In this document: in pieces, positions 2,963-21,134 of the stretch | Layout of the letters: the number at the start of each line of letters is the position of its first letter | How positions within the stretch are numbered: position 1 is the stretch's first letter | DNA from: Bacteroidota bacterium | GTDB lineage: Bacteria; Bacteroidota; Ignavibacteria; Kryptoniales; JAKASW01 | Length of the DNA stretch: 32,418 nucleotides | Reading direction: 5' to 3' | Assembly: GCA_023381615.1 (NCBI GenBank) | Contig: JAMCQL010000013.1 | Location: 67,869-100,286, forward strand | Program-made: the position numbers and the translations under genes | The notes under the pieces: generated by a model | The model's input: the letters and a program-made list of their open reading frames with translations, nothing else | Database searches by the model: none | Told to the model about the DNA's origin: nothing

Positions 2963-3880
2963 TCAGAAGTGAAGAGCTAAATTCACTTCTGTTTGATATC
3001 CCATTCCTTGCGGCAGCGGGGACATCCCAACGCTAGTCTGAACAAACTTGTTGTGGCTGTGCGCCCAGAGCGCCGCTTCAATTGCCGAGACGAAATGGTT
3101 TACCAAAACGACGCCGACTGCGGTTGAAGCAACTGCGTATAAATAATTAGCCTGGCCGCGCTGATCCATATAATAGCCGCTGTGAGGAGTGTCTCTTTCA
3201 AGGTCTTGAAAATTAACAAAAGTGGGATTCTCATCGTCCCACCCCTGCCTGAACTGGGGATACTTGCCGATGAGTTCGTAGTACTGTTGGTTTCCATGAA
3301 TTGGCAGGAGGTGAGAGAAATATCCCCCTAATGCACCTTCAACTTTATTCAGGTAACTCCAATTGACTTTATTCCATGGAGCGGGACCGCCGGTGTTAAC
3401 CACCATCAGCGGCGCGTACTGGTTCGCTGTCGCTGGATCAGGTGACTGATTGATTTGCTCAAGCTGCGCCAAATTCTTTTGAATCCATGTTGCGTACTGG
3501 ACAACGCTCCAATGTTCGTTCGTATAATTTGCGGCTGCCGTCCCGTCCGCATAAGTTTGGAAAAAGTTTGTCTTCTCATTACCCTTATTCGTCCATACTA
3601 CGTCCACAACCCATCCGGCAACTTCCACGGCAAAGAACGCGGCTGCCTTGAGATAATTTTTATTGTAAGCCTGACCAGCGCCGGGAATTATCAGCGAGAA
3701 TAAACCGGCTTTCAAAGCCGAGCGCGTCTCAAACATCGCAAGCGAATCTTCGTGACTCATAGAAGGCGCCGATGCAAAAAGATCGTGAGAGAGAACTCCC
3801 GTCAGTTCTTTACTAGGCTTATTTACCTGCGCATTTGCCGCGACCGCCATCGCGAAAATCAATAACAGAATCTTGTTCAT
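2963..3880 (-). CDS. DUF5683-like membrane protein with signal peptide
   Basis: The 305-residue protein starts MNKILLLIFAMAVAANAQ, a clean signal peptide. It carries a hydrophobic block at about residues 54-92, ALKAGLFSLIIPGAGQAYN followed by YLKAAAFFAVEVAGWVVDV. The phrase S-x-x-x-PGAGQ-x-YN plus an adjacent membrane segment is what I associate with the DUF5683 family of FCB bacteria, whose function is unknown. A second hydrophobic stretch lies near the C-terminus (ASTAVGVVLVNHFVSAIEAALWAH). The start codon overlaps the stop of the upstream gene as ATGA (3877-3880), so the two are almost certainly translationally coupled and this is the last gene of the T9SS block. I infer an envelope role from context only. 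Confidence 0.75.
   Translation of the reverse strand: MNKILLLIFAMAVAANAQVNKPSKELTGVLSHDLFASAPSMSHEDSLAMFETRSALKAGLFSLIIPGAGQAYNKNYLKAAAFFAVEVAGWVVDVVWTNKGNEKTNFFQTYADGTAAANYTNEHWSVVQYATWIQKNLAQLEQINQSPDPATANQYAPLMVVNTGGPAPWNKVNWSYLNKVEGALGGYFSHLLPIHGNQQYYELIGKYPQFRQGWDDENPTFVNFQDLERDTPHSGYYMDQRGQANYLYAVASTAVGVVLVNHFVSAIEAALWAHSHNKFVQTSVGMSPLPQGMGYQTEVNLALHF
2964..2991. terminator. Hairpin at the convergent gene ends, possible bidirectional terminator
   Basis: CAGAAGTGAA (2964-2973) pairs perfectly with TTCACTTCTG (2982-2991) around an 8-nt loop. It lies directly after the phosphoesterase stop and inside the last codons of the minus-strand gene. The thymine tracts on both sides are weak, so termination is plausible but not certain. 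Confidence 0.45.
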
Positions 3881-6800
3881 TGCTGTCTCCCGAAATCTAC
3901 TATATCAAACGAGAATGTCAAGCCAAAATACATTCTCCATTCTTTACCATAAGTGGCTACAGTCTTGAACTGCGGCACGTTTTGGACAAATTTGTCGAAG
4001 CTGTAGGCTGCGTCAAAGAAAATAGCTGTCGGAAAACTGTAGAACGAAAAGCCGCTCATTCTCAATTCTGTTCCCATGTCCTTCTTGAACCTTGTGTTGA
4101 GCGGGGTTCCGTCCCAACCGTTCCCTATGTCGCCGTAAACGGAAAGATAAACGTCGCTCAGGTAAAATTGGAAAAATTGTTTGTTGACGTCTCTGAAGAG
4201 AGGATATCGGTAGGCCAAATTCAACGCGAGCATTCTATTGCCGCTGATCGCATAGAAAGGATAACCTCTCATCCCAACCAACCCGCCCGCATAAAAGTCG
4301 AAGAAGTTGTTGATGGTCGCACCGAACGTGTAGCCGATCTTCAACTTAGCGGCAAGCGCATCATCGCGGCGAAACAACGGGAATGCGAAATAATTCATGA
4401 AGTCAGCTTGAACAAAATTGAACGGTTCGTAAATCGGAACGAGCACTCCATTTTCAAACTGATAATTTCCGTCTGCGTTCAGTTTGTCGAGCGCGCCGGT
4501 GATTCTCAAATGCGCTCTCACCCCAAGGGGATTGATCCATGAATTGCGCGAAGGCTCAATGCCGTCAAAATCGAATTGGGCGTAGAAAGACCTGCCGAGA
4601 AAATACACGTCTCCGGAAGACGAAACGTAAGCACCAAGTTCAGGAAGTATAAAACCCGAGACTGTCGAAGTATACCTGTCGAAAGTGAAACCGAGCGACA
4701 TGTCGAGCGCGGGCGACAAGATTTTTCCGCTGAAAGCGGCGTCGACTTCAACCAGATCATAGTTCACACCAACCCCGATTGTATCTGCTCCGAGTCCGAT
4801 GCTCGCATTGGTCTGCCGCGTCAAGTTGTACACCGAAAGCGTGAACTGCGGATATATTCCGAGCGAAGAAAGACCGGGAATTTTGTCGTTGTAATCCATC
4901 TGGAAGAAAATATCGCGCTCGAGAAGTTTGTTTATCGTCGCGCCTCCAAAAATGTCGTACTTTCCCACAACATCCGTCGAAGCAAAATAGACGCCGGCTT
5001 TCAGTTCGTCTAAGAAGCTGTTGTGAGGGTTATAATTATCGAACAAAAGTACAGGATAAAAAGACATGCTCGTCGTAACACTTTTGTACGGCTCCGATTT
5101 GTAATCAGGTATTACCTTGTCATTGTAGTGTCTCAAATTTTCCGGTAAGCTGTTTTCGGTCGATGCGAAAAGTCCATTGGATCCTGCGGACGGCGGCGGG
5201 TCGATGCCTACATTGTACGCTGGCGGATCAGGTACCGGAGAAGCCGAAGCGATCTCCGAAATTTTGTAGCCATTCCATTGGTACGAAGAATAAACAAGGT
5301 CGCCGTTCTTCGAAACCGCCGGCATGAATGCGCCGCCGAGAACGTTTGTCAAAGCAACTGTCGAGTCATTATATAAATTGGTTCTGTAAATATTGAATAT
5401 TCCACTCCGGTCAGAGCAATAGACGACACTGCTGTCGTTATCAGTGAAGAGCGGGTCGCGCGAATCCTGATAAGCGGGAGTAACAAGCTTCACCGAGCTG
5501 TCGGCGAAACTGTATATGCCGATTTCTCTCGACGAGTTGATCGAGTAGCTGAACACAATCTTAGAACCGTCCTGAGACCAGCGCGGCGAATATATCTGCT
5601 CTCCGCTTTTGTAATCTGTAAGTTTATGAATGTGTGAAATTTTGTTTTGAGACAGATCAATGTCCGCACTGTACAAGTTCAAAGTCCCGTCACTCCCTGC
5701 AACAAAAGTGATTTTCTTGCTGTCGTTGGAAAGAGAAGGATACCTCGCCCTCAACCCGTATGTCAATCTGACTTCCCTGTCGTTCTTGGTGTCATACGAA
5801 TAAATATCGTACAGGCTGTACCAAAATTTGTTGAGGCGCGTTTCCTTGGAATAGACAAGATAACGTCCGTCGTTTGACCACGAGAGCTCGCTTGCAACAC
5901 CGTCGACAACTTCTTTCTCCGTGCTGTCGGCAAGGTTATAAACGTAAAGCGACGATGTGCCGAAAAAATCGCGATGCTTGTTCGAACAGTAAGCGATCTC
6001 ATTTCCGTCAGGCGAAAAAACAGGGAAAAGATTCGCAAATCCTACGTCCCTGATGATTTTTCCCTGATGCAGGCTTTCCTCAACTTTTGCCGCCTTGGCT
6101 CCGTATGTCTCTTCAAGAAAATTTTTCCATTCAAGATAGACCTGTTCGGCGGATTTGTTCAGGACTTTCTCGAATGCGTAATTGATCGACACCGCGTCCA
6201 CTGAACGCATGGCATCGGACAGTCTTCTCAGCACATCTGGGCCGTATCTTCCGGCAAGATAATGAACAAATGCGAAACCGGCGTTGTAAGTCGATTCGTT
6301 GCCGAGGCTCGTTTTTCCGAATCCGCCCATCTCATCCAGCGTCAGCATCTTGTGGTTCAAAACGTACATTCGCAGAATCATGTCGCGATGCGTATCCCAA
6401 GTGTCGTAATTGACATGAGGAATATTGTACTGCGCGACTCCCTCGGCAAACCACGCCGGGATAACAATACCGCTCACCGGATAACTTACCACCACATTCG
6501 GATAACCGTAAAGAACATCTGGTCTGCGCTCCGATTCGTAGCCTAACCACTGAAGGTAAATAGCGGGGACATGCCTGCCGAATTTCGTTGCCGTATTCAT
6601 TTCAATCTCGTGAGTAAACTCATGAGTGACCACGTTTCGCAGCCAATCGTGCGTTCCGCGAAGCTCAAAATCCAGCGACGACGCCCAGATGTTGATCTTG
6701 TTGTCGAAAAAGTAGGTTTCTCCGTTGGAATAGTCGTCTGTATCCCAGATTACAAACGAGACTTTCTGGTCGGGCTCATGGTGGTACAACTTTGTCAGAG

Positions 6801-7002
6801 ACCCGTAGATTTCCTCCGCGATCTTCGCGACAAGCTGAGCGGTGCGCTCTTCGCCGGGATGATAATCCACCAGAAAATGTTTAGTTTCGATCGTGCGCCA
6901 GTTCAGTTCCGGATGAATGTAATCATCCTGCGCAAAAGCAAGGCTGGAACAAAGTAACAAAGTAACGAAGTAACAAAGTAACAAAGAGAAGAAAGGAGGC
7001 AT
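3877..7002 (-). CDS. Gluzincin-type peptidase / beta-propeller / outer-membrane barrel fusion
   Basis: I take ATG 7002 as the start (1041 residues), because translation gives a compact signal peptide ending SLAFAQ|DD. An open frame reaches back to 7071, but that stretch is repeat-derived. In 7002 numbering, residues 127-131 are HEFTH in VVTHEFTHEIEMN, and E187 lies in PAWFAEGVAQY. This HExxH plus WFxEG arrangement is that of gluzincin metallopeptidases (M1-like 'peptidase MA' domains). A long stretch of PD40/TolB-type propeller blades follows (FSPDGNEIAYCSNK, WSNDGRYLVYSKE, WSQDGSKIVFSYS). The last ~390 residues are aromatic-rich beta strands with GGLVGMRGYPFYAISGN, resembling the RGY/F motif of Omp85/BamA barrels. 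It probably displays a peptidase at the surface or periplasmic face. The gene overlaps the DUF5683 gene by 4 bp. It is often the sort of protein labelled only 'TolB-like'. Confidence 0.8.
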   Translation of the reverse strand: MPPFFSLLLCYFVTLLLCSSLAFAQDDYIHPELNWRTIETKHFLVDYHPGEERTAQLVAKIAEEIYGSLTKLYHHEPDQKVSFVIWDTDDYSNGETYFFDNKINIWASSLDFELRGTHDWLRNVVTHEFTHEIEMNTATKFGRHVPAIYLQWLGYESERRPDVLYGYPNVVVSYPVSGIVIPAWFAEGVAQYNIPHVNYDTWDTHRDMILRMYVLNHKMLTLDEMGGFGKTSLGNESTYNAGFAFVHYLAGRYGPDVLRRLSDAMRSVDAVSINYAFEKVLNKSAEQVYLEWKNFLEETYGAKAAKVEESLHQGKIIRDVGFANLFPVFSPDGNEIAYCSNKHRDFFGTSSLYVYNLADSTEKEVVDGVASELSWSNDGRYLVYSKETRLNKFWYSLYDIYSYDTKNDREVRLTYGLRARYPSLSNDSKKITFVAGSDGTLNLYSADIDLSQNKISHIHKLTDYKSGEQIYSPRWSQDGSKIVFSYSINSSREIGIYSFADSSVKLVTPAYQDSRDPLFTDNDSSVVYCSDRSGIFNIYRTNLYNDSTVALTNVLGGAFMPAVSKNGDLVYSSYQWNGYKISEIASASPVPDPPAYNVGIDPPPSAGSNGLFASTENSLPENLRHYNDKVIPDYKSEPYKSVTTSMSFYPVLLFDNYNPHNSFLDELKAGVYFASTDVVGKYDIFGGATINKLLERDIFFQMDYNDKIPGLSSLGIYPQFTLSVYNLTRQTNASIGLGADTIGVGVNYDLVEVDAAFSGKILSPALDMSLGFTFDRYTSTVSGFILPELGAYVSSSGDVYFLGRSFYAQFDFDGIEPSRNSWINPLGVRAHLRITGALDKLNADGNYQFENGVLVPIYEPFNFVQADFMNYFAFPLFRRDDALAAKLKIGYTFGATINNFFDFYAGGLVGMRGYPFYAISGNRMLALNLAYRYPLFRDVNKQFFQFYLSDVYLSVYGDIGNGWDGTPLNTRFKKDMGTELRMSGFSFYSFPTAIFFDAAYSFDKFVQNVPQFKTVATYGKEWRMYFGLTFSFDIVDFGRQQ
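6951..6986. repeat. 8-bp tandem repeat (AAAGTAAC)n inside a signal-peptide coding region
   Basis: Four consecutive octamers, AAAGTAAC, AAAGTAAC, GAAGTAAC and AAAGTAAC (6951-6982), are followed by a partial unit. On the minus strand they encode the hydrophobic core LLLCYFVTLLLC of the signal peptide of the gene ending at 3877. Because 8 is not a multiple of 3, gain or loss of one unit would shift the downstream frame. Confidence 0.9.
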
Positions 7003-7055
7003 GCTTGACGTTCGCGAATTCTTATAAGTGCCGCTTCGTGGGAAGTATAGCTTTA

Positions 7056-7087
7056 CTTTGTGCCTTTGCATCTTTGTGTCTTTGTGC
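7056..7087. repeat. Second 8-bp tandem repeat, (CTTTGTGC)n-like
   Basis: The units are CTTTGTGC, CTTTGCAT, CTTTGTGT and CTTTGTGC. They lie in the 64-bp spacer upstream of the fusion gene, after the M6-like gene stop in transcription order. The far-upstream ATG at 7071 falls inside this array, one reason I reject it as the true start. Confidence 0.85.
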
Positions 7088-7135: not shown

Positions 7136-10100
7136 TCACTTGACGACTGCTATTTTGATAATTGCCACGTCTCGTTCTTTTGATGACACTGCTTCCACTC
7201 TCGCGAAATAGACTCCGCTTTGTACGCCGCTCGCATTCCAGTCCACTTCATTTGCCATACCGCCGGTTCCGCTGGTTTGAATGTCGGCGACTTTGTCGCC
7301 GGCGAAGCTGAATATACTAATTGACACCCGCGCATTGTCCCGCAAGTAGAAATGTATTTTCGTCAGACCGTTCGTCACCGGATTCGGCCAGTTGTAAACT
7401 TGCGAAGTCGGCATCAAATTCTGCGCGGGCGGCGGCGGCTGACTCTGGAGCGGCTGCGTCACGGAATTCAAATGATAATTATCATGGAGAAGATTTCCCC
7501 AGACGACTTGGCTTGGAGAGATTCCTTTGAATGTCCAGCTGTACAAATACCCATCGAGACCGATTGCGGCGAGATACAAATTCCCGCCGGGATCGTAAGC
7601 GACAGCAGGACTGCCGGCGAGCGCGCCGCCAACACTCAGGGGAAAGCCCGGTAAGATTTGTCCTGTGGCGCCTGTGAAAGCGTAAATCTCTCCGCCTTTG
7701 GTTCCGAATATCACTTCCGGTTTTCCGTCACCATCGAGATCCGCAACGACGACAGAACCCGTAATCCGGTTTGCGTCAGACGGAAGGACTTCACTTCCCA
7801 CTGTTGTTATCGGGAAGTGATTGAGAACCGCGCCGGTGTATGAGATCGCGTAGACTTTCGTCTGAGTTGCGAAAATGATATCGCGGTTCCCATCGCCATC
7901 GAGATCGGCGATGACAGGACCTGAAGTAATCGTGTCACCGGGAAAAACGGAGAAGACTTTCTGCGGTGTGCTCCCTGTACTGTCGAGATAAACGAAGTGT
8001 GAAGTGAGTTCAACAATAACAGGACTTCTCTCAGGCGACAAGCTTGCGTAAGATATGGCAATAGGAATTGACCCAACAGGGATTGGGTGAAGCGGCGGCA
8101 TATTGGAAGAAGATTGAATGACGTTATCTACGTTAACGGAATAGACGCCGTATCCTGGAACATTCAGATAAATTCTACTCGTATCGATGGCAGCAAACCG
8201 CGGAAGGATCGATGAAGCGCTTTCTGCAGACGATGATCCTGTGCCCGACGCGTGTAACGGAAGAGGCATGGAGTAGAAACCCAAATATTTCCCGGATGTA
8301 GTGAATGCCGTCCACGCCGCCTGATAATTCGACGGGAACGAGAGTATCTTGCTTCCGAGAAGAAGCAGCGGTCCGCCGGCTCGAGGGTTAGGGGACGGCG
8401 ATTTCGTTGAAAAGATCGTGTCCGCAGTTCCATCATGGTTATTGTCTCTGTCAACAAGTCCATAAAACACAGAGTCGTCCATCGCATAGATCGTGTTCGA
8501 AGCCGCATTCTCGGAAGAAACAATCGGCTGAAACGCTCCGCCTACTTTCGAGAAAAGTCCGGTCGAATCAAATCCTGCGGAAGTCCCGTCCATGTTGAAG
8601 GCGTAAAGCGAGTCGCCGTTGTTGGCGATCACCTGCAATCGTCCGTCGGCGCTGATATGTCCAAACACCGGTGAAGAGTTCACGGTTGCGTCGTGGATAT
8701 TCTTAGGAAAACTGGCGGTTGGCTGGATGTTCGAATCGCCAACTCTTACGTCAAAAGTCATAGCGCTGTCGGCGCCGCTGAAATTTGTGATGTAAACATG
8801 CGAATTGGCGCCGCTGTAACTGTTGGAATTCGGCAGCGAAGTTGGGGTGAACTGGTTCGTATAAACAACCGCAGGATTGCCCTTGAACCAAAAATCGTAT
8901 GCGGAGCCGTCGTAATAATAAAAACCGGTGAAAGTCTGAATAAGCATTCCAATCTGATTTGCGCCGTGAGCCTCCATCAGCGCGACGCCCCTGTGATCCG
9001 GGTTGGCGTTTACCGTATTCGTCGCGATGTTTTGATTTATCACATTATCATCTATATGCCAAATCAAAATTCCGCCGTAATATTTTATTCCGTTACTTAT
9101 ATCTCCGGGGAGTGCCCAGTCATACTCGTCGACGTCCGTCACAACGCCGTTTATTCCTTTGATCTGTGTGCCGTCGAAATAAGTCGTGTCGTCATCGAAA
9201 CTGATGGTACTGTAATTACCTTTATAAAAAGTCGTTATGTTCTCACCGTTGTGCTCTGCATCCCGCTCGCGATTCTCTATCAAGAAATATTCGCTTCCGC
9301 TGATCGGAACTTTGAGAACGGAGTACTTCCCCGTCTCATTCGCGTAAAGCTGGTACGTCGTCGCTGTTGACGGCGAAACCTCGACCGGCGTCACCCAGCC
9401 GAGATACATTTTCTCCCATGCCGACGGTTCCGGCGGGAAAATTCCGCCGTACGCAAATATCGCTTGCCCATCCATCAGACCAAACCTGCCGATTCCGGTG
9501 ATTCCTGTTTGCGAATCGAACAGATCGGGCAGACCGAGATAACTTCCGAAGCTTGCGGCGAGGAGTCCGTTGGTCCCGAGCGTTAAGTTTATCTGTAATG
9601 CTCCTGTCGCATCATAAATTTGGTAGGACTCACTCTCCGGCATGATGATGGAATTCGGGATATTGAAACTGCCGTTGTCAACGGGCTGACCGCTGTAACT
9701 TGCGCCGAACATATTGCGCAGGCTCTGTGCATTTAAATAAAGCGACGGAATATCGAACGGTCTCGGATCGTAGCCGAGCGTGGAAGTGAAATCAATGTCG
9801 CGGCCGGAACCGGCGTGGAATATCACGAAACACTGGAACTGGCTGAAGTCGAAATTCTTATAGATCGAATCTGCCGCGTGCCACGAATCCCGATACAGAA
9901 GTCCAAGATTGTTTGCGTTCAATGTCCCGGTTTTCGGAGACGAATAATACTTCATCTGGTGCGGAAGCGTAATGACGGAATCGAGCACCACGTAATTTAC
10001 GTTGAGCTTCCCTCCGGAAACTTTGCCGAAATAATTCTTTAGAAATAGGAGGTGATTCTCGAAGTAAGCTTTGTCGTGCGGCGGCGCGTCAAGTCCGGCG

Positions 10101-10318
10101 CCCTGCGACATTAGGAATTGTCCGTTGCCGCTGGTCAAGCTGTCATTGTCGGATTGGAACTGTACCATGATCGCAAGAACATTCACAGTGCCCGCCGCCA
10201 AAATTCTATTCGGGCGAGTGCTCTGGAATGCCGCGAGAGGATGGCTCAGTTCCGGTCCACGGGATCCCGTGGATGCGAAAAGCAGCGCCGCGTGTCCAAT
10301 GGATCCTACGGACAACAT
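7136..10318 (-). CDS. M6 immune-inhibitor-A-like protein with T9SS sorting domain; catalytically degenerate
   Basis: The 1060-residue protein has the M6-family layout. The N-terminal region has NVLAIMVQFQSDN, the middle has SYLGLPDLFD, GIGRFGLMDG and SAWEKMYLGWV, and FG-GAP-like repeats follow (VIADLDGDGNRDIIFAT, VVADLDGDGKPEVIFGT). The last ~80 residues (VYNWPNPVTNGLTKIHFYL ... GVYFARVEA) are a type A T9SS C-terminal sorting domain. In M6 enzymes HEFGH precedes the LGLPDLYD block; here residues 255-259 are ASFGS, so both zinc histidines and the catalytic glutamate are absent. It should bind rather than cut. The ATG at 10318 has no ribosome site; a CTG at 10354-10352 would add NFKFPAVAAAI, giving a better signal peptide and an 11-nt overlap with porV. 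Probable PorV/PorU client. Confidence 0.88.
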   Translation of the reverse strand: MLSVGSIGHAALLFASTGSRGPELSHPLAAFQSTRPNRILAAGTVNVLAIMVQFQSDNDSLTSGNGQFLMSQGAGLDAPPHDKAYFENHLLFLKNYFGKVSGGKLNVNYVVLDSVITLPHQMKYYSSPKTGTLNANNLGLLYRDSWHAADSIYKNFDFSQFQCFVIFHAGSGRDIDFTSTLGYDPRPFDIPSLYLNAQSLRNMFGASYSGQPVDNGSFNIPNSIIMPESESYQIYDATGALQINLTLGTNGLLAASFGSYLGLPDLFDSQTGITGIGRFGLMDGQAIFAYGGIFPPEPSAWEKMYLGWVTPVEVSPSTATTYQLYANETGKYSVLKVPISGSEYFLIENRERDAEHNGENITTFYKGNYSTISFDDDTTYFDGTQIKGINGVVTDVDEYDWALPGDISNGIKYYGGILIWHIDDNVINQNIATNTVNANPDHRGVALMEAHGANQIGMLIQTFTGFYYYDGSAYDFWFKGNPAVVYTNQFTPTSLPNSNSYSGANSHVYITNFSGADSAMTFDVRVGDSNIQPTASFPKNIHDATVNSSPVFGHISADGRLQVIANNGDSLYAFNMDGTSAGFDSTGLFSKVGGAFQPIVSSENAASNTIYAMDDSVFYGLVDRDNNHDGTADTIFSTKSPSPNPRAGGPLLLLGSKILSFPSNYQAAWTAFTTSGKYLGFYSMPLPLHASGTGSSSAESASSILPRFAAIDTSRIYLNVPGYGVYSVNVDNVIQSSSNMPPLHPIPVGSIPIAISYASLSPERSPVIVELTSHFVYLDSTGSTPQKVFSVFPGDTITSGPVIADLDGDGNRDIIFATQTKVYAISYTGAVLNHFPITTVGSEVLPSDANRITGSVVVADLDGDGKPEVIFGTKGGEIYAFTGATGQILPGFPLSVGGALAGSPAVAYDPGGNLYLAAIGLDGYLYSWTFKGISPSQVVWGNLLHDNYHLNSVTQPLQSQPPPPAQNLMPTSQVYNWPNPVTNGLTKIHFYLRDNARVSISIFSFAGDKVADIQTSGTGGMANEVDWNASGVQSGVYFARVEAVSSKERDVAIIKIAVVK

Positions 10319-10343
10319 TATTGCCGCGGCGACTGCTGGGAAT

Positions 10344-11501
10344 TTAAAATTCAGTTTTTGTGCCCCAATTTAGAGATAAAGAGAATCGCAGCTGGTTAGA
10401 TAGCGGATTGTTTTGATCAAAAGTCGAAATGTAACTGAAATCGAAGCCGTAAATGTCATAGCGTATACCGGCGCCGAATGTCAAGAAGTTTCGTCCGCCA
10501 AAGTTCGGATTTTCCTTGTAGTAACCCATGCGAAGCGCAATGAGTCTCGGATTCCCGTACCAATATTCGGCTCCCATGCTAATGATGATTCTTTTCAAAC
10601 CGCTTCCGTCGCCCCATGTCGTAATTAAGGCTTCAGGCAGTGGATCGACATTGGTAATCGGATAATATGTGGTATCAAACGACGTTGGGTTTATGTTCAT
10701 CAGAGAATCTGTTCTTACGCGGACCATAGTTCTGCTTGCATCAAAGACTAAATACAAATTGTTGAATTCGCTCTTTAAGAGATGAAGCGAGATGCCGAGC
10801 CTGAGATTTGTCGGAAGCGGATCTGCCTGCGCCTGATCGATGTAATAGAGCTTCGGACCAAGGTTGCTTAACGCAATTCCTAAGCCAAGTCTGTCATCGA
10901 AATTGCCGACCAGCGGCAAATCCAGGTGTTGCGGACGATACAACAATCCCAAATCGAAACTGACATCAGAGGCAATTCCTTTTCCGACTTCTTGCTCCGT
11001 TCCGAACGGCGCAAGCTGACTTCTTATGTATCGGAAGTTTGCCCCTAGACCAAGTCCGCTGGAAATCTGCGTGCCGTAGCCCAACGTTATTGCAAACTCG
11101 AACGCATGCCACGTACTGACGACGATAGGACCATTTGAAAGTGTCTTATTAAATGTTCCAAGGTTGAAATAAGTTAAGCTTGCTGCGAAGTTTCCATCCC
11201 AATCTTCCAGGTAATGCCGGTAGCTAAGAAAATCGTAGCTCAAATCGGAGCCGAATTCCGGAAGCCACGGAGCGTGCGTAAGCCCGATTTCATCTCCTCT
11301 TAGAAAGCCAAGGCCGCCTGGATTCCAGAAGAGAGCCGATGCATTGTCTGCTAAACCAGTGCCAGCCTCTCCCATACCCGCTGCGCGGGCGTCAGGAGAA
11401 ATTAAAAGGAATGGCACCGCAGTTTCACCTTGCGCAAACGCACCTGAGCTTAGTGTTAATACGGCAGCCGCCATAACCACCGCAAATAATGTTACTTTCA
11501 T
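10344..11501 (-). CDS. porV: T9SS outer-membrane protein PorV
   Basis: PorV (LptO) is a FadL-like outer-membrane barrel that collects CTD cargo from the T9SS translocon and hands it to PorU. The 385-residue protein starts with signal peptide MKVTLFAVVMAAAVLTLSS ending AFAQ. The family signature follows: PFLLISPDARAAGMGEAGTG, LADNASALFWNPGGLGFL. The rest is alternating amphipathic strands (GLGLGANFRYIRSQL, NFLTFGAGIRYDIYGFDFSY) ending in an aromatic residue (KTEF), as barrels do. GAGGAG lies about 10 nt before the ATG. It is 62 bp downstream of porU and very close to the M6-like gene, consistent with one transcript. PorQ is a related alternative, but the length and the porU neighbour favour PorV. 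Confidence 0.9.
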   Translation of the reverse strand: MKVTLFAVVMAAAVLTLSSGAFAQGETAVPFLLISPDARAAGMGEAGTGLADNASALFWNPGGLGFLRGDEIGLTHAPWLPEFGSDLSYDFLSYRHYLEDWDGNFAASLTYFNLGTFNKTLSNGPIVVSTWHAFEFAITLGYGTQISSGLGLGANFRYIRSQLAPFGTEQEVGKGIASDVSFDLGLLYRPQHLDLPLVGNFDDRLGLGIALSNLGPKLYYIDQAQADPLPTNLRLGISLHLLKSEFNNLYLVFDASRTMVRVRTDSLMNINPTSFDTTYYPITNVDPLPEALITTWGDGSGLKRIIISMGAEYWYGNPRLIALRMGYYKENPNFGGRNFLTFGAGIRYDIYGFDFSYISTFDQNNPLSNQLRFSLSLNWGTKTEF

Positions 11502-11563
11502 CGATCTTCACTCCTCATTTATGGTCTTATTATAAAAGGTTGCGCGGAAACTTTCTACACATA

Positions 11564-14500
11564 TCATCGCACAACCGCCATCTTTCCGAGCGCTTCACTC
11601 GTGTAAGCACCATCAACCGTTGACACGATCACTTTGTAAAGATAAACTCCGTTCGCAAGCCGGTCGCCTTCCTCATCAAGTCCATTCCAATCGACCTTCA
11701 CAAAAGTATCGGTTATTCCGTACGATTTAATAGTCTTGATCAGTCTCCCACTTATTGTGAAGACTTTTATCGTCACGTTGACGGGCGCGCCAGCGCCTCC
11801 GGCAGCGGAACGCTGGAATGTAAATGAAGTGCTGCTACTGAACGGGTCGGGATAATTGTAAACATTCTGTATCGACAATTGCTCAGATGATTCTACGTCG
11901 AAGCTGACGCTCGCTTGGGAAGGGTTGTTGAAAACGTCAAAGGCTCTTACCGTAACGCTGTGTTCTCCAAACCCGAGCCGCGTGGTAACCGGATATGTAA
12001 CTGTACCATCTTGATATGAATTCAAATTGCCCACGTAATACGGCGCAAGATCCACGGACTGCTGCCCGTCAAAAACCGCCTGCAAGCTGTGTCCGACCGC
12101 TACATCCGAGAGATTTATTCCGTTGGACGAATGCAAATCAACAATCAAGGTCGGTTTTTCGGAGACAACATCTCCATCCCTGAAATTCTTCGAATCAAAA
12201 TAAATATTGACTTGCGGACCTTTGTGATCATTTGTAACGTTCGTTGCTGTCCCGCCGACAATGACATTTCTTGTGTATCCCGATCCATCGGAGCCGTTAG
12301 TCTGAAAATACAATTCGATTTTGCCGGCGTTGTTGCTGTACGAAATATCCGTGGGAATCACTGTCTTAGCTTCAAATCTGCCGTTCTGGACGGAGACTTC
12401 GCCGCGATAAAGTATCGAACCGGGAAACATATAAGTCTTTCCCCATTCTGGTACAAGCACAGGCTGGTCTGAATCGAAAACTGTAAGCAGCCCCGTTCCG
12501 CTCAGATCACTCCAGACCGTCATGTCAGGGTGATAAACTGTTCCTTTAATGTCGAGTTTGTCGAGCGCGCGAATCTGCGTTACCTGTACGAGCGATTTTC
12601 CATTCAAGCTGTCGATCGTTGCCTGATATTTCGGCATTGCTATGCGGACGGTCGGATCCCCGATGTATTGGTACTTGATGTCGTTCAGCGAGTATACGGA
12701 CTGTTTTGTTTGGAAGACAGCGTCGCCAATTCTTTCCGGATTGCGCTGCGAGTCTCTGACAAAAAGATGTTGAAACAAAGTTTGGTTGAAGTAAGCATTG
12801 AGGTCGGAAAAAACAATTCTCGTCGAGCTGACAACTCCTATTGCGCCGCCTTGCGCCCAGCTCGTCAAAAGTTCTGCCCCGCTTTGGGCCTGCGGGTCAT
12901 CATCGCGGGCAAAGTCGCAGGTAGCCGCGACAAACAAACTCAATCTTGTCAAGTTTGTCAGTTGCGGGATAGTGACGGAGTTTTGAAAAATATGTGTGTA
13001 TGACCAAAGATCAGGTGCGCCGTGCCCGACAAAATCTACGACAAGCGTCCCTTGGTTGATCTGATTTACAATATCTGCCGCCGCTTCGGGCTTGCGTCGT
13101 CCTTCGGTGGAAATCGTCGTCGGATAAAGCGCGAGGTAAATCTTCCGCTTATCGAGCTCACTCGGAGTATAATTCTGTGCGAGGTCATCAACTTGTGAGG
13201 TGTGCAGGTCGTAATCGTTGCCGCCGCCGCTGGTCGGTCCGTCGTCTCCAATAAATGTTACGAGATTTTTCCAATCGCTGTAGTCGGGCTTCGATTCATA
13301 CTGGATTATCTTATTCACAATAGTAGTTGCCTCATTGACGCTTCTCGCAGGCAATCTTCCTATTGCCATGGAGATTGGTGTCTGTGTGAGCGGCGCTGAA
13401 AACTGGACGAAATAATCGTCGGTGCTGTATGTTCCTATTTGAGACAGCGATTCAGTCGACTCGTACGGGGGTACATATTCCGGAACGTTTGCAACTTTGT
13501 TCTTATAGTCGTACGTTCCACCTCCGAAAAGAACAACGTAAGATGGAGTTGTCTGGTAAGTGGAGTACGCGTATTTCAGGAAATCGCGTATCGCCGTCGG
13601 ATCGGGAATTCCGCATCCAAATTCATTATAAATAGCTGTGGTTGGCACAACGACGGTTTGCAGTCCATCAAAACTCTGTTTAAAATCTTTCAACTGGTTC
13701 GCCTGAGATAGAAATTCAGGGGGGGAAATTATTATCAAGTTTGCGCCAGCTGTCAGTCCATGGAGATCGGAGTTTTGAACAGCTGAGATATTATCAACTG
13801 ACAAATAGCCGCTGTCTCCAACAGCGAAGAATTGCTTTCTTGCGCCGGAAACCGCCTGAATGCCAAACGAGACGGTTCCGCCGTTTATCGAATCCGGTTG
13901 TATCAACGCCGCGTTTGCAAAATTAGTCACGTCGAAAACTCGCACGTTGCTGCTCGAAAAATTTTGCACGGAATAATAAACGTTTGCGTTGGTGTCGGGC
14001 GCATAAAAGTTCAGCACATCGCTGTTTGATTGGAACTTTCTTTTGTAAAGTATTTCGTACCAGTCAACGTATCCGCTCGCCGAAGGAGAAGTGGAACTGT
14101 ACACGATCTTCAAAGCGCTTCTTTGGTCCACAAGATTGCCGCTCCCGACAAACGTTTGTGGCGGAACCGGAAAGGCGTAATAGCCCTGATCGTAGCTGTA
14201 ATCAACCGTCCCAACAGGAATGGTACCAAGCATAGCTCCGGTTGAGTTCTCAAATACCTGAAAATAATTGTATTGGTTGCTTCTCGCAATTACGCGGACA
14301 CGGTAAGTTATATTCTGAGTCGAATCGAGGCCGTAGAGCTTGTTGACGTAAATCGTATTATTAGACCCAGGATTATTGGGAGTCGGAAGTTGGAGCTTTG
14401 CACCAAACCAGTCCTTACCGGAACTAAGCAAATTGTATACCTCATCCTCCTGAAATATCCCCGAAGTAAAATCATTTGGTTTATAGTAAGAGGAAGATTG

Positions 14501-15544
14501 CACGCTTTGAATAACTTGCATCCTCTTCCCCGGCTGTCCGCCGAACGTCATGAAATAGTAATTTGATTCCGTGTAATGGTTGATGTAATGGGAAAATGTC
14601 TTCGTCGCCGGATTATACGACCATTCGCGCGGGGACTTTCCGTAAAACAGGATGTAATCTTCCGGATCGAACTTATTATTTCCGTTTGCATCGTAAACAT
14701 AAATCGCGTTTTCCGTAAGATCGTTCGGACGCGCGGCATTAGGATCCTCCGGCAGCTCAGTTCCACCGTTGTTAAAAATTCTTATTGTGTTCAGCTGAAT
14801 GTTGTCAACAGGCACTCCGGCGGTTTTCAACGCGGAGTAAGTCAACTTGTAAATTCCGCTGTGAGAAACCGCTAGTTTGTACCATGTTCCTTGCGCCAAC
14901 ACGCTCGAAGCCAGCGTCTTCATCAGCCGGGATGGCGTGCTCACAACAGCATTTTTCACTTGCGGATAGTTCACCAAAGCTCTCGAAAGCAGCGGATCAC
15001 TGGCGACACTCTGGCTCGAGACACCGCTGCCAATAGAAGAAACTTGCAGTACGACCCTGCTTAATATCTGGTACGAACCGGCGACGCTGTCGTACGAAAA
15101 CGGATAGACTCTGATTCTCGAAACGAAGTGCTCGCGCTGGATGTACGGCAAGTCGAACGAAACGAATGGAGAAACGGGCTGTAAATTTCCTGAAGATGGA
15201 ATGTTCGGGCTTCGAAGAGGCGGAAGCAAAGAAACGGTCTTGTAATCAACCTGAAGGACTTGCACTTGAATTTGTTTGGAGAAAACTCCAACCAGGACCG
15301 GTATGAATTGTCTTAGATAGTTGCCATTCGAGTTGAATTCCGGTACCGCGCCTCTGAACGAAAGATTAAGATAAGAAGACCCATTGATGTTAACCGTGTC
15401 GGCGCCGAGAGAGTCAGGTGTAACTTCGATCGTTACCGATTGTCCTGACTGCGACAAGACTTTAACATCCTGCGCGGACGATACCGCCGCAAGAAGCAGA
15501 ACAAAAATTCCTATTTCGATTATCTGTCTTTTCACTCTTCTCAT
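11564..15544 (-). CDS. porU: T9SS sortase PorU (C25 gingipain-like peptidase)
   Basis: PorU removes the C-terminal signal of T9SS cargo at the cell surface and links the cargo to the membrane anchor. The frame is open from 15610, but I choose ATG 15544 (1326 residues) because the first 22 codons would be encoded by a terminator hairpin; from 15544 a signal peptide follows (RRVKRQIIEIGIFVLLLAAV ... SSAQ). The gingipain dyad is intact: the histidine in DFVGHGAPDLW (codon 13024-13022) and the cysteine in AATCDFARDDD (codon 12919-12917). The C-terminus holds a FlgD/CTD-like domain (VYNYPDPFSSSTSFTFQ, KTIKSYG, NGVYLYKVIV). No clear ribosome site is seen, common in this group. It heads the block porU-porV-M6-like-fusion-DUF5683. 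Confidence 0.92.
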   Translation of the reverse strand: MRRVKRQIIEIGIFVLLLAAVSSAQDVKVLSQSGQSVTIEVTPDSLGADTVNINGSSYLNLSFRGAVPEFNSNGNYLRQFIPVLVGVFSKQIQVQVLQVDYKTVSLLPPLRSPNIPSSGNLQPVSPFVSFDLPYIQREHFVSRIRVYPFSYDSVAGSYQILSRVVLQVSSIGSGVSSQSVASDPLLSRALVNYPQVKNAVVSTPSRLMKTLASSVLAQGTWYKLAVSHSGIYKLTYSALKTAGVPVDNIQLNTIRIFNNGGTELPEDPNAARPNDLTENAIYVYDANGNNKFDPEDYILFYGKSPREWSYNPATKTFSHYINHYTESNYYFMTFGGQPGKRMQVIQSVQSSSYYKPNDFTSGIFQEDEVYNLLSSGKDWFGAKLQLPTPNNPGSNNTIYVNKLYGLDSTQNITYRVRVIARSNQYNYFQVFENSTGAMLGTIPVGTVDYSYDQGYYAFPVPPQTFVGSGNLVDQRSALKIVYSSTSPSASGYVDWYEILYKRKFQSNSDVLNFYAPDTNANVYYSVQNFSSSNVRVFDVTNFANAALIQPDSINGGTVSFGIQAVSGARKQFFAVGDSGYLSVDNISAVQNSDLHGLTAGANLIIISPPEFLSQANQLKDFKQSFDGLQTVVVPTTAIYNEFGCGIPDPTAIRDFLKYAYSTYQTTPSYVVLFGGGTYDYKNKVANVPEYVPPYESTESLSQIGTYSTDDYFVQFSAPLTQTPISMAIGRLPARSVNEATTIVNKIIQYESKPDYSDWKNLVTFIGDDGPTSGGGNDYDLHTSQVDDLAQNYTPSELDKRKIYLALYPTTISTEGRRKPEAAADIVNQINQGTLVVDFVGHGAPDLWSYTHIFQNSVTIPQLTNLTRLSLFVAATCDFARDDDPQAQSGAELLTSWAQGGAIGVVSSTRIVFSDLNAYFNQTLFQHLFVRDSQRNPERIGDAVFQTKQSVYSLNDIKYQYIGDPTVRIAMPKYQATIDSLNGKSLVQVTQIRALDKLDIKGTVYHPDMTVWSDLSGTGLLTVFDSDQPVLVPEWGKTYMFPGSILYRGEVSVQNGRFEAKTVIPTDISYSNNAGKIELYFQTNGSDGSGYTRNVIVGGTATNVTNDHKGPQVNIYFDSKNFRDGDVVSEKPTLIVDLHSSNGINLSDVAVGHSLQAVFDGQQSVDLAPYYVGNLNSYQDGTVTYPVTTRLGFGEHSVTVRAFDVFNNPSQASVSFDVESSEQLSIQNVYNYPDPFSSSTSFTFQRSAAGGAGAPVNVTIKVFTISGRLIKTIKSYGITDTFVKVDWNGLDEEGDRLANGVYLYKVIVSTVDGAYTSEALGKMAVVR

Positions 15545-15550
15545 AACAAT

Positions 15551-15594
15551 AAAAAAGCCGAATGCTGTGCACGCCTTTTGCACCATCATTCGGC
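15551..15594 (-). terminator. Rho-independent terminator or attenuator in the porU leader
   Basis: On the minus strand GCCGAATG (15594-15587) pairs with CATTCGGC (15564-15557), with a possible inner GTGC/GCAC stem, followed by six thymines (15556-15551). It lies 170 bp after the stop of the LPP20-like gene and only 6 bp before the porU ATG. It can therefore end the upstream cluster, but any transcript of porU starting upstream must also cross it. Confidence 0.75.
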
Positions 15595-15765
15595 AAAAAA
15601 GGCTCCTCAAAGGTCTACAGCAACTACAGCAACTTCAACTTTAAACCTTTAACGAACCTTCGCTAATTTTTCCTTTTTGAGAATATAGCAGGAAAGGTAT
15701 GCTCTGTCAAGGAATCAGAAAGCGAAAAGAGCAATCTTTCGGACTCTGTGAGTAAAATCGCAATG

Positions 15766-17142
15766 CTATTTCGGTGAGTTTTTCGCCTTTCCAAGCATTT
15801 CGGCAAGTTGTGATTGCGGCAATTTCAACGAAACCACCGCCTTGTCGACCGCTTCGGCTTTCGTCTTTCCCAATCCTTTCGCGTTCGCCGTAAGACTCCC
15901 AACGACACCTTGCGATTTGGAGTCGACTAGTTGAACCAGCATTGCAACATCCTGGACCACCATCGTTCCGCCCATTCCCTGCATGCTTCCTCCGTCGGTG
16001 GAACTCAGGTCAACTTTAATGGTAAAAGGTGCACCGCTTTGGAGAATCGCCCCGTTCTTCTGCAGAATATCAGCGAGCTTGTTCCGCAGACTCTTTTGAG
16101 CGGAGCTGCTCCCAACCCCCGTCAACTCGAGGTAACATCTCAACTCCGGCATTACTACACTGTAACTGAATGACACCGAAGTGTTTTGGTTTAAAGCTTT
16201 GCGTAATTCAGATCCAACTTTCGCAAGATCGACGCAAGCAACGACAGTTCCCTTTGAACCTTCTCTTAGCCCTTCGGCTTCAGATAGGAATTTGTAGGAA
16301 GCAAAACCTTTATCGCCTGTAAAGACTTTGTCAATCAGTTTACCTCCGACTTTGAAAGAGACCGGCAATCCTTTGAGCGCCTTCTCATCGCCGCCATCCC
16401 GCATGAAAGCCTGAACCACAAACGGTTCATTAAAAAGTTTTCCCAAATCCTGGGTCTGGTTGTCACCGGAAATTTTCTTCAAGAAGATTTTCTCCAGCAA
16501 GTTTTTCAAGCTCAAGTCAATCGACTCAGGCATTATCTCCTGCGGAACCTCATAATGAGTCTGCGAAAGCGCGTTGTAGAAAACCACTTTCGGAAACAGC
16601 GGCTCTATGAACGTGAGTTCGTCGAGATACTTGTTCACCGCCATTCCTATCTCGCCGGATTTCGAAAGCTCATCTGAGGACTGCAGTTTCGTTTTCGCAT
16701 CATTTACAATACCGTCGAGTTCCACTTTCAAGGTGTTTAGAAACGATTCCTTTTCCAAAACAGCAAGCGCGTAAGTTGTATTGTCATTCTTTGCAACATA
16801 AATCTCTGCAATCTCCAATCCGGTCAGCGGCATTGACTCGACAACGCTCTCTGTTCTGCTTTCAAGATTGGATGTTACGAGTTCGCTGTCTCCGATCCGC
16901 GAAGCTTTTTGCACGACGGAAAAGTCTGCGGAGACTGCGACTTTCAGTTGCGCCGCCACTTCACGGCGGGCAACCTGACGTGCCTGCTCAAGCGCGTTCG
17001 CATCGGTTCCAGCGGCGCTTCCTATCCCGACCCAATAAAATTCCGTCGGATAGTGAATATCTTTTCCTGCCGTCACCCACTTGGGAACCTGAGAAAAACT
17101 TTCCGCTGCGACCAACAGCAGCAGCAATATTAACTTTTTCAT
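15766..17142 (-). CDS. LPP20-like secreted envelope protein
   Basis: The 458-residue protein starts MKKLILLLLLVAAESFSQ, a signal peptide without a lipobox cysteine. Right after cleavage comes VPKWVTAGKDIHYPTEFYWV followed by GIGSA, then DANALEQARQVARREVAAQL with KVAV. This P-x-W ... Y-x-x-G-x-G ... A-x-x-x-A-x-x-x-A-x-x-x-L pattern is that of the LPP20 domain. The central region (VNKYLDELTFIEPLFPKVVF) resembles a helical linker. The C-terminal part (NKLADILQKNGAILQSG, ending with a repeat of the A-x-x-A-V-x-x-A helix) looks like a second copy of the same fold. The start is 3 nt from the stop of the upstream gene and follows GCGGAG, so the pair is coupled. Periplasmic location is inferred; function unknown. 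Confidence 0.75.
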   Translation of the reverse strand: MKKLILLLLLVAAESFSQVPKWVTAGKDIHYPTEFYWVGIGSAAGTDANALEQARQVARREVAAQLKVAVSADFSVVQKASRIGDSELVTSNLESRTESVVESMPLTGLEIAEIYVAKNDNTTYALAVLEKESFLNTLKVELDGIVNDAKTKLQSSDELSKSGEIGMAVNKYLDELTFIEPLFPKVVFYNALSQTHYEVPQEIMPESIDLSLKNLLEKIFLKKISGDNQTQDLGKLFNEPFVVQAFMRDGGDEKALKGLPVSFKVGGKLIDKVFTGDKGFASYKFLSEAEGLREGSKGTVVACVDLAKVGSELRKALNQNTSVSFSYSVVMPELRCYLELTGVGSSSAQKSLRNKLADILQKNGAILQSGAPFTIKVDLSSTDGGSMQGMGGTMVVQDVAMLVQLVDSKSQGVVGSLTANAKGLGKTKAEAVDKAVVSLKLPQSQLAEMLGKAKNSPK

Positions 17143-17145
17143 TTT

Positions 17146-18387
17146 CTACTCTCCGCTGTTTTCGATGCTCATAAGCATCAGCTTACGATTGAGATTAATT
17201 CTCTTGAGCTTTGCGCCGGCATCTTTCAAGTCTTTGTTCGAATCGAATGCCTTAGAAAGTTCACGGAAAAACCGCGAAGTGTTTTCGACATTTTTTTGCC
17301 AGACGATGTAATCAACCGTCTTTTCCGTTACGGCGATTTGCTTGCGCTGGTTTGTCAGTCCTTTCAGCACTTCGTCAACCGCATCTGAAATGACGTAAGG
17401 GTCTTCAAACTTTCCGGTTATTTTGAAAATCAATTTGTACTGCTGCCCGCGTGCAATATCGTCTTTCCAGTATGCGCTGATCCTGCTCAGCACTTTGTCG
17501 ACGGCGTCGTTCATTGCCTCTTCTATAACTGCCGCGTCCGAAACATTCGGACGTTCGGGACTGTAACCGGTTTCGGTGCCAAGAAGACGGGCAGTTGTCG
17601 TCTCATAAGCACGGCATCCTACGACGCCTTTTTTTCCGTATGTTCCCTGCTCTACCTGAACATTATAAGTGATGTACACGTCGGCGCCGATTGAAAGGGC
17701 GAGCTGGTACGCGATATCATCTTCGACTCCTTTCAAACCCGCTTGTGCTGATGAAAGCTCAGAAATGTTCTGCATTTGCTCCGGAACCTGAACGTCATAC
17801 TTGCGCGCCGTCAGAAAACTCTCAATCACTTCCGCTCCCTTTTTAACATTGGGGTCTTTCTGAAGGAGGTCAATCGGACTGGTGCCTTTTGGGGCTTCCG
17901 GCAAAACCATTATAAATGGATTCCCGATTGAAGCGGATAACCTTTCGCGCGAAGCTATTATCCCTTGACTTGCTAAGTCCTGTGTCAACTTCTCCTTGTT
18001 GATTCGAACGAGTTTATCCACCTTCACACCGTCTTTCGTTTTCACTCTTGCGATGACCTCATTTCCGAAAAAAGTTATGTATTGCTCGATATTCTTCGAA
18101 TCAAAAAAAGTTTGCTGAATTTCTTCAAACGAACTCTTTTCGCGCTGAGTCTGCAAAACCGGATCAGTCATATCGTAGAGGACAAAGTAGACCGCCGCCT
18201 TTTTCGCGTCCTGCTCAGCCGCGTCCACATTAGGACCGATTCCCGTTGCTTTAAGAGCGATTTCAGTCGGAGAATAAGTTTCAATAAAAGTGGCCTGTCT
18301 CGAGACCGGAAGATTTCCCTGCCCGAAGGCTGCGACAGGAATCGAGGATACAAATAGCAGCAGCACTCCAAAAATTTTCTTAATCAT
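17146..18387 (-). CDS. FlgT/DUF6175-like secreted protein
   Basis: I use ATG 18387 (413 residues): CGGAG lies about 9 nt upstream and translation gives signal peptide MIKKIFGVLLLFVSSIPVAA ending FGQ. The N-terminal domain (IALKATGIGPNVDAAEQDAK, KAAVYFVLYDMTD) has the G-x-G-x(6)-A-x-x-D-A-x-x-x-A pattern of FlgT-N/LPP20-type folds. The middle (NPFIMVLPEAP, GAEVIESFLTARKYDVQVP, ALSIGADVYITYNV, ETTTARLLGTETGY) resembles the TolB-N/CsgG-like module that also occurs in FlgT. The last ~120 residues (ARGQQYKLIFKITGKFEDPY, RISAYWKDD) may be another alpha/beta repeat. I recall the family name DUF6175 for similar proteins but could not check it. An open frame extends to 18438 without better support. 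Confidence 0.65.
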   Translation of the reverse strand: MIKKIFGVLLLFVSSIPVAAFGQGNLPVSRQATFIETYSPTEIALKATGIGPNVDAAEQDAKKAAVYFVLYDMTDPVLQTQREKSSFEEIQQTFFDSKNIEQYITFFGNEVIARVKTKDGVKVDKLVRINKEKLTQDLASQGIIASRERLSASIGNPFIMVLPEAPKGTSPIDLLQKDPNVKKGAEVIESFLTARKYDVQVPEQMQNISELSSAQAGLKGVEDDIAYQLALSIGADVYITYNVQVEQGTYGKKGVVGCRAYETTTARLLGTETGYSPERPNVSDAAVIEEAMNDAVDKVLSRISAYWKDDIARGQQYKLIFKITGKFEDPYVISDAVDEVLKGLTNQRKQIAVTEKTVDYIVWQKNVENTSRFFRELSKAFDSNKDLKDAGAKLKRINLNRKLMLMSIENSGE

Positions 18388-18443
18388 TTTCAAATCTCCG
18401 TTTATTTGGCAAAAAGCAAATGAGCTTCCCGCCTTCACAAATT

Positions 18444-20237: not shown

Positions 20238-20381
20238 AACCGTTTCCCTTTTTTTAAGTATTAGCCGCAAACCTATGAGATTTGAGATCCTAATTTTATA
20301 AATGCTACGAAATTCACGATTATCAGGAACAGGCCGCACACTTAGCGCATGCAAACAGCCTATTCGGAGACCCAGAAGAGA

Positions 20382-21134
20382 CTATTGTGCCGGCATTCGC
20401 GCCAAGACGTAATACAAATTTTTGCTGTTATCTTTCCAACGCTCAGCTATTTGGAAATGCCGAAGTTCAACAGATATTCCTTCGTTTCGAATCTCTTGCC
20501 CGGAGTTTTCATCGATCTTCTGAAGTGCTTGGGTAGATACACGAATATTAAATCCCAAATTCCTCCGTGCCATTTTTTCGGCGGTTTCCCAAGAGCTTGA
20601 TTCGTAGAAATAATTTGGTGAAACGCCAATGGCATAGATGTATCCTGGTTTCTCCGGCAAAGACTCGACCCATGAAGGAGCCTTTTGGGAAAATGATGCC
20701 ACAACCTTCATCGAATCTGCAAGAAGGCTGTCACCGTCTGCCGCGAGCGAGATCACGATTCCTTTTCCGTAAAACACATCCACTCGCTTTACATTAGAAG
20801 GAATTCCGGCGAGACGAGACGAATCGACGTCTTCGCTGTAATCATTTCCCATCCAATAAACGCCGGCTTCGGTTTCCCAGAAGGACTCGCCTCCTGACAA
20901 CTTCGTGTACGATTGCATTACTAAGTTCTTGTAAGCGTTGGAAAAAGCCTGAGAGGCAGAAGAGTCCTGATAAAAAGAAGGATTAGCGTATCCAACTGCC
21001 GCGCTGCGAAATTGAATATCTCCCTGTTCGATAAACCATCTCGGGTAAACTTGCGCATGAAGTTCGAGACTTGCGCCGAACAGTAACAAGGATCCCGCAG
21101 ACAGTAGAAAGACAACCATTTCTCTGCCTCTCAC
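20382..21134 (-). CDS. Secreted protein with two LPP20-like stretches
   Basis: The 250-residue protein has signal peptide VVFLLSAGSLLLFGASLELH ending AQ. Two related segments follow: YPRWFIEQGDIQFRSAAVGY with the helix SASQAFSNAYKNLVMQSYTK, and later APSWVESLPEKPGYIYAIGV with the helix SSWETAEKMARRNLGFNIRV. Both show P-x-W ... Y/A-x-G then a long amphipathic alanine-rich helix, the LPP20 pattern. The frame opens with GTG 21134 (MRGRE); an internal ATG at 21119 has AGAGG 7 nt upstream, but choosing it would remove the basic n-region, so I keep GTG with low certainty. It is 19 bp after the lipoprotein gene. Confidence 0.7.
   Translation of the reverse strand: MRGREMVVFLLSAGSLLLFGASLELHAQVYPRWFIEQGDIQFRSAAVGYANPSFYQDSSASQAFSNAYKNLVMQSYTKLSGGESFWETEAGVYWMGNDYSEDVDSSRLAGIPSNVKRVDVFYGKGIVISLAADGDSLLADSMKVVASFSQKAPSWVESLPEKPGYIYAIGVSPNYFYESSSWETAEKMARRNLGFNIRVSTQALQKIDENSGQEIRNEGISVELRHFQIAERWKDNSKNLYYVLARMPAQ

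Follow-up and report, generated by a model that had tools for sequence, protein, structure and literature searches.

M6i, an M6-like protein encoded directly after porV in a Bacteroidota genome, is near certainly a pseudopeptidase, and among 296 genomes of the phylum it is found in exactly the same ones as a second protein, MA_PD40, that keeps an intact peptidase motif. We favour the reading that M6i is exported and serves, without catalysis of its own, as a subunit of a T9SS accessory module linked to PorV; M6i would hold a client in its dead cleft, with MA_PD40 as its partner; on the evidence below, this account is somewhat better supported than not. All window coordinates refer to the full 32,418-nucleotide stretch that was analysed (GCA_023381615.1, contig JAMCQL010000013.1).

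An M6-like protein of a named family

The M6i gene (7136..10318, minus strand) encodes 1,060 residues in a full-length frame with zero internal stops. The product is differentiated into an M6-like region (~60–530), a propeller/FG-GAP region (~540–960) and a T9SS type A sorting domain (~977–1047), as assigned by ORF calling, Pfam and NCBIfam. Matches exceed the Pfam cut-offs for FG-GAP_3, FG-GAP and Por_Secre_tail, and the sorting domain (residues 977–1047; 7178..7390, minus strand) is recognized by TIGR04183 (28.5 bits, cut-off 23) and PF18962 (33 bits, cut-off 27). The initial annotation's description of a full-length gene with FG-GAP repeats and a T9SS sorting domain therefore holds. The best family assignment is the NCBIfam equivalog NF052323 (864.1 bits, cut-off 600), matched by 17/17 aligned members and named 'T9SS-dependent M6-like inactivated metalloprotease'. 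M6i is thus a new instance of an already named family and, because that name includes the inactivation, the pseudopeptidase itself is not new. The M6 domain model TIGR03296 scores 64.8 bits (E = 1.1e-17), below its cut-off of 110.8. PF05547 went unmatched in the window's genome and in the controls alike; a non-match of this model does not show absence. The same genome encodes SprA, PorV and PorU, and M6i would be exported by the T9SS to act at the cell surface.

Structural searches point mainly to the propeller. An AlphaFold model from 17 sequences has a mean pLDDT of 66, with residues 265–284 below 50. The top Foldseek match is PorZ (5m11, E = 6.5e-12), with a TM-score of 0.15–0.19; the matches listed are propellers, and there is no M6 structure among the 50 listed for this model of pLDDT 66. 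Of two PDB sequence searches, one gave no match and the other a single chance match (E = 0.2). Upstream of the first ATG the frame stays open (KLNFKFPAVAAAIMLSVG...; window 10319–10354, minus strand), and the extension resembles a better signal peptide. The true start could be a CTG at 10352–10354, which overlaps the stop codon of porV.

Replacement of the zinc site

At the HExxH position M6i reads ASFGS (residues 255–259; codons 9542..9556, minus strand), inside the interval 9540–9560 where the initial annotation had located the replacement. Alignment of an M6i profile (17 sequences) to a profile of M6 peptidases from relatives (6 sequences) by hhalign (99.9%, E = 4.7e-31, model positions 101–548) agrees, setting A-S-F-G-S exactly beneath the H-E-Y-G-H of a relative's M6 peptidase. 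The flanking motifs that had been picked out, LGLPDLFD, GIGRFGLMDG and SAWEKMYLGWV, are all present, as are the retained G262 and D265 of HxxGxxD.

The replacement extends across the family and is not chance. We aligned 164 M6i rows, three of which lack the motif columns; removing six rows shorter than 850 aa and six duplicates left 152. HExxH occupies the motif columns in 0/161 rows of the alignment and in 0/152 of the distinct rows of at least 850 aa. Small residues stand in for the motif: position 255 has A, S, N or G, while 256 is mostly S or N and 259 S, N or T. Around them the fold signature persists, with N250 and G251 invariant across the alignment, D265 (which we take to be the third metal ligand) kept in 152/152 distinct rows and M282 (presumably the Met-turn methionine) in 145/152. 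HExxH was present in 13/13 M6 peptidases read from relatives; a search of 61 relatives had given 15 matches above the TIGR03296 cut-off, of which G058:C51 and G031:C31 were left out.

A tree of 32 M6i and 12 HExxH-bearing proteins (one of the latter, L234, below the cut-off) sets M6i apart on a branch with 100% SH-aLRT support, in a calculation that raised long-branch warnings. This topology fits a single loss of the zinc site, which is ancient. The initial annotation had named observations that would speak against a maintained pseudopeptidase: orthologues at the same locus with HExxH together with a frame or substitution pattern of recent decay, or an alternative HExxH in the window protein; none of these was found. 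An HDNYH (HDxxH) at residue 945 of the window M6i lies in the propeller part and is not an M6 site, and in the 164-row set the one alternative HExxH belongs to the L125 protein, whose HEMAH (residue 139) is in a different part of the chain. By its sequence, then, M6i is not an active M6 peptidase.

Constraint on the former active site

To compare regions we divided M6i into eleven segments, with boundaries chosen by us, and computed mean column entropy over 152 sequences. Residues 241–310, holding the dead site and Met-turn, have the lowest value (1.07 bits), followed by residues 161–240 (1.82 bits); the sorting domain stands at 2.01 and the propeller at 2.75 to 3.29. Within the genus, pN follows the same gradient, at 0.05–0.13 for residues 245–310, 0.13–0.18 for 60–310 and 0.23–0.31 for 560–960. 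Over residues 60–310, pS is 0.70–0.83 in the ten same-genus comparisons that cover the region. Because synonymous sites are mostly saturated within the genus (pS ~0.6–0.9), we give mainly pN and pS rather than dN/dS; the dN/dS check proposed earlier could be computed in 4/10 of these comparisons, saturation of pS applying, and gave omega of 0.056–0.074. The uniform absence of HExxH (0/161) and the gap between pN and pS bear out the suggestion of a maintained pseudopeptidase instead of decay. Purifying selection on M6i is thus focused on the former active site, a pattern that could reflect binding or purely folding.

Organization of the porV locus

Genes of the window's T9SS row run on the minus strand in the order porU, porV, M6i, MA_PD40, DUF5683. 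PorU, the T9SS sortase (11564..15610; NF033707, 961 bits), has intact Cys and His motifs (ATC, GHG). PorV, the T9SS outer-membrane shuttle (10344..11501, minus strand), lies directly upstream of M6i, as had been noted; it matches PF19572 at 106 bits (cut-off 27) and the NCBIfam PorV/PorQ family at 286.6 bits (cut-off 90), and falls just below the cut-off of the PorV equivalog model (248.5 against 250 bits). MA_PD40 (3877..7071, minus strand; assigned from Pfam, NCBIfam, alignment and model) is followed by a DUF5683 protein recognized by Pfam (2963..3880, minus strand), the last gene of the row, found in the corresponding position at many loci of this class.

This arrangement recurs with few exceptions. 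We compared 157 M6i loci (six duplicate loci left out), in three of which the contig ends upstream. PorV is directly upstream of M6i in 152/154 loci with room to tell; in the other two (L188, L192) PorV is found elsewhere in the genome. MA_PD40 directly follows M6i in 134/157 loci by a distance rule of −150 to +900 bp; the contig ends in 4, and in 19 the rule finds none, although in 5 of these 19 (L199, L200, L204, L208, L209) the gene is further off or overlapping in the same stretch. PorU is absent from the fetched stretch in 16/116 M6i loci, seven from family f42 and nine from f35; the tie is thus to porV and not to porU. For f42, PorU was located elsewhere in five of the seven genomes (G126, G171, G178, G182, G312), G279 and G328 being outside the search. 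Named carriers are metagenome-assembled genomes and isolates of Ignavibacteria, Melioribacteraceae and Stygiobacter (Stygiobacter electus, L093, among them), and one Balneolaceae bacterium.

Some further features of these neighbourhoods are recorded here. One locus (L048, genome G060) has two tandem PorU genes upstream of porV (10282–14400 and 14563–18606). Upstream of porU in the window, 15766–21134 (minus strand) holds four consecutive ORFs of 458, 430, 636 and 250 aa, with no NCBIfam match at E ≤ 1e-5 and none above 60 bits in loci L031–L080. The T9SS row is preceded by the housekeeping genes for DNA polymerase III alpha (24537–27974, minus strand) and proline–tRNA ligase (30362–32074, minus strand).

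MA_PD40 and its joint presence with M6i

MA_PD40 combines a Peptidase_MA-like domain, bearing HEFTH (residues 150–154) and WFAEG, with a TolB-like PD40 propeller in the middle of the protein. HExxH is intact in 131/131 distinct sequences and WxxEG, presumably a third ligand of gluzincin type, is found in at least 130 rows. Peptidase_MA_2 was matched by 15/15 members at E ≤ 0.01 (best 2.4e-7), the window protein scoring 16.9 bits, below the curated cut-off of 32.4. There is no match to a T9SS sorting domain, and all NCBIfam matches are under their cut-offs. MA_PD40 looks like a peptidase of a type other than M6. In a model of mean pLDDT 68, long antiparallel strands run from about residue 670 almost to the end and are probably an outer-membrane barrel; the Foldseek matches listed for MA_PD40 are led by propellers and did not confirm it.

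Across 296 genomes of the phylum, M6i and MA_PD40 are both present in 115, either alone in 0 and neither in 181. M6i was counted in 110 genomes over the NF052323 cut-off and in five at 358–408 bits (G257, G069, G073, G061, G065), these after their syntenic genes had been seen; MA_PD40 presence means a match at E ≤ 1e-40. Loci were drawn from 14 M6i genomes, including the window's own, and from 100 of the other 101; the one left out, G208, is closely related to several f35 genomes. Where the two genes are apart, both persist: in 12/12 M6i genomes chosen for absence of MA_PD40 at the locus, it is encoded elsewhere (E ≤ 2e-104), and in M6i-lacking genomes it was found in 0/12 (best E = 3.4e-30). 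The targeted search took in 12 of the other 14 rule-negative loci; G071 was covered by the 296-genome search and G052 was left out.

Shared ancestry was addressed with a FastTree PorU tree of 160 rows (130 with M6i, 30 without), on which presence changes 10 times, giving 8 independent pairs on supported branches. The tree holds only genomes with PorU, MA_PD40 was not separately scored in every positive (for example, G052, G026), and one label served both traits, so the count gives the number of independent events only. Joint presence in part reflects linkage, since adjacent genes can be gained or lost together, and only the unlinked lineages speak clearly; even so, shared ancestry and linkage do not explain all of it. 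One genome without M6i, G006, also has no close match to PorV or MA_PD40, through joint loss or an assembly gap. Among 16 genomes of the class that lack M6i, PorU is over its cut-off in all and PorV follows PorU in 14/16, so M6i is not needed for the T9SS as such.

These distributions bear on whether M6i is simply T9SS cargo of the ordinary kind: a surface or adhesion protein, conserved and non-catalytic, that happens to be encoded in the porU–porV operon and has neither a special role in the secretion machinery nor a functional tie to MA_PD40. In favour of this, the sorting domain of M6i is a plain type A one and the protein has FG-GAP repeats, M6i-lacking genomes of the class keep PorU and mostly PorV, and four f35 genomes keep SprA without M6i. 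A cargo gene is not expected to stay directly after porV across many families, however; the presence of M6i equals that of MA_PD40, which has no sorting-domain match, even where the genes are unlinked; and the best-conserved segment of M6i is the dead site, not the propeller. We regard plain cargo as unlikely, while giving it appreciable weight.

M6i in genomes without detectable PorU

Nine f35 genomes (G307, G246, G154, G277, G215, G314, G165, G128, G109; loci L121–L127, L129 and L132) contain M6i, with PorV directly upstream, and MA_PD40, but have no PorU match at E ≤ 1e-20. PorZ gave no match in eight of the nine and a weak one in G314 (E = 4.6e-5). The translocon protein SprA is over its cut-off in 9/9, and their M6i proteins keep a sorting-domain-like C terminus. 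In four other f35 genomes (G196, G269, G292, G326), all of genus g102, SprA is present while PorU, M6i and MA_PD40 are undetected; the same genus includes G128 and G314, both of which have M6i and MA_PD40. M6i and MA_PD40 thus outlive PorU in some lineages and, where they disappear, are lost jointly while SprA remains. The nine genomes have a T9SS with SprA and PorV in which the PorU sortase is undetected.

The nine genomes led us to reject M6i as a PorU-dependent part, and they weigh heavily on the related proposal that it is a structural member of the PorU attachment complex, a PorZ-like carrier presenting a glycan or lipid anchor to PorU. PorZ resembles M6i in having a sorting domain and propellers, and differs in having no M6 domain; one study (PMC8545088) describes PorZ as a component of the T9SS attachment complex and reports that its sorting domain is retained. 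The first Foldseek match of M6i is to PorZ, and most loci place its gene in an operon with porU and porV. The TM-score of that match is just 0.15–0.19, though, and the PorZ N-terminal propeller (PF21544) is not among the Pfam matches of M6i. PF21544 was matched in 191/296 genomes, among them the window's own and 105/115 of those with M6i, on which ground M6i as a replacement for PorZ was also rejected. With nine M6i genomes having no PorU match, and eight of these no PorZ match either, the attachment-complex proposal appears largely refuted, and we rate it very improbable.

Equally improbable, in our judgement, is that M6i retains an unrecognized enzymatic activity independent of HExxH, with a site near, for example, D265, D283, H168 or D423. 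H168, D265, D283, W420 and E348 are invariant in the 152 distinct rows, and D423 is kept in 149. The M6 profile with HExxH, however, has equivalents of both H168 and the WHID strand, which therefore look structural; no activity resting on them is known to us.

Recent decay of an active enzyme in the window's genome, to which the ASFGS replacement and two interrupted copies in relatives might point, was rejected and has a negligible probability, given 0/161 rows with HExxH, low pN and a full-length frame in the window. The interrupted copies, one split into two ORFs (L041:8324–10866, G001) and one with an early stop (L193, G279), may be assembly errors or real losses.

A proposed role for M6i

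The initial annotation suggested a binding or structural surface protein. That generic assignment stands, and it can perhaps be narrowed to membership of a PorV-linked T9SS module with MA_PD40. In our preferred account, M6i would be exported to the cell surface and act there as a subunit, itself non-catalytic, of this accessory module; the module would not depend on the PorU sortase. A protein, peptide or glycan would be held by the propeller of M6i and by its remodelled cleft, in which small residues occupy the metal position. Selection protects the dead cleft more than any other part, which makes binding at that site the likeliest role of M6i. MA_PD40 would be an envelope protein and, with its gluzincin-type site intact, the obligate partner, performing the chemistry or else processing or positioning the bound client; it is the likeliest catalytic partner of M6i. 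The partnership would resemble the pairing of an inactive with an active peptidase in MPP alpha/beta, and not the action of a lone adhesin. Both partner and mechanism are here read from conservation and genome context.

More tentatively, and with rather less confidence, we suggest that the pair may constitute an undescribed, obligate two-protein T9SS module, in which M6i captures a surface client and an envelope-anchored gluzincin–propeller–barrel protein, MA_PD40, processes or clears it. Such a module would be tied to PorV and independent of PorU, and genomes that lack PorU and PorZ but retain SprA would still keep both proteins or neither. Some points count against our preferred account. An Omp85-like build would put the peptidase domain of MA_PD40 in the periplasm, whereas M6i is expected at the surface; and the module is not needed for the T9SS as such, four f35 genomes having SprA without M6i.

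A literature search, run without bioRxiv and most subscription papers, listed no title on the NF052323 family, its operon rule or its pairing with MA_PD40; the operon rule and the pairing may be new. A dead-protease family that was named but unexplained thereby gains a context: a seat beside porV, MA_PD40 in 115/115 genomes and survival in nine genomes with PorU undetected. If the proposal is true, Ignavibacteria, Balneolaceae and related lineages have an accessory T9SS component that genomes of the usually studied T9SS groups lack, and a bacterial exported pseudopeptidase paired with an unrelated active peptidase becomes open to study. Should the partnership prove untrue, the M6i locus would still offer a clear case of a pseudoenzyme that is ancient and strictly retained.

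Comparison with known systems

At the protein level M6i is the same as the NF052323 family, whose library row gives no partner, operon rule or function. It is homologous to the M6 peptidases (TIGR03296), which are InhA-type enzymes, and keeps their GLPDLxD motif, Met-turn, and ENR and WHID strands; where they have the HExxH zinc histidines and catalytic Glu, M6i has lost both histidines and the Glu. The metzincin pseudopeptidases ADAM22 and ADAM11 offer a parallel, having likewise lost the zinc motif and kept the Met-turn, and acting by binding. A published account (PMC11266112) describes ADAM-family pseudopeptidases that bind with the Met-turn kept, and the pairing of inactive with active subunits in MPP. 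The same account places the ADAM22 partner on the domain surface and not at the pseudoactive site, which is a caution for a reading of M6i that has the client bound in the cleft. These systems are eukaryotic, belong to other peptidase families and have no T9SS. For the proposed pairing of M6i with MA_PD40, the precedent is the M16 pairs such as MPP alpha/beta, in which an inactive protein partners an active peptidase; in MPP the two are homologous, but MA_PD40 seems to belong to a peptidase type different from that of M6i.
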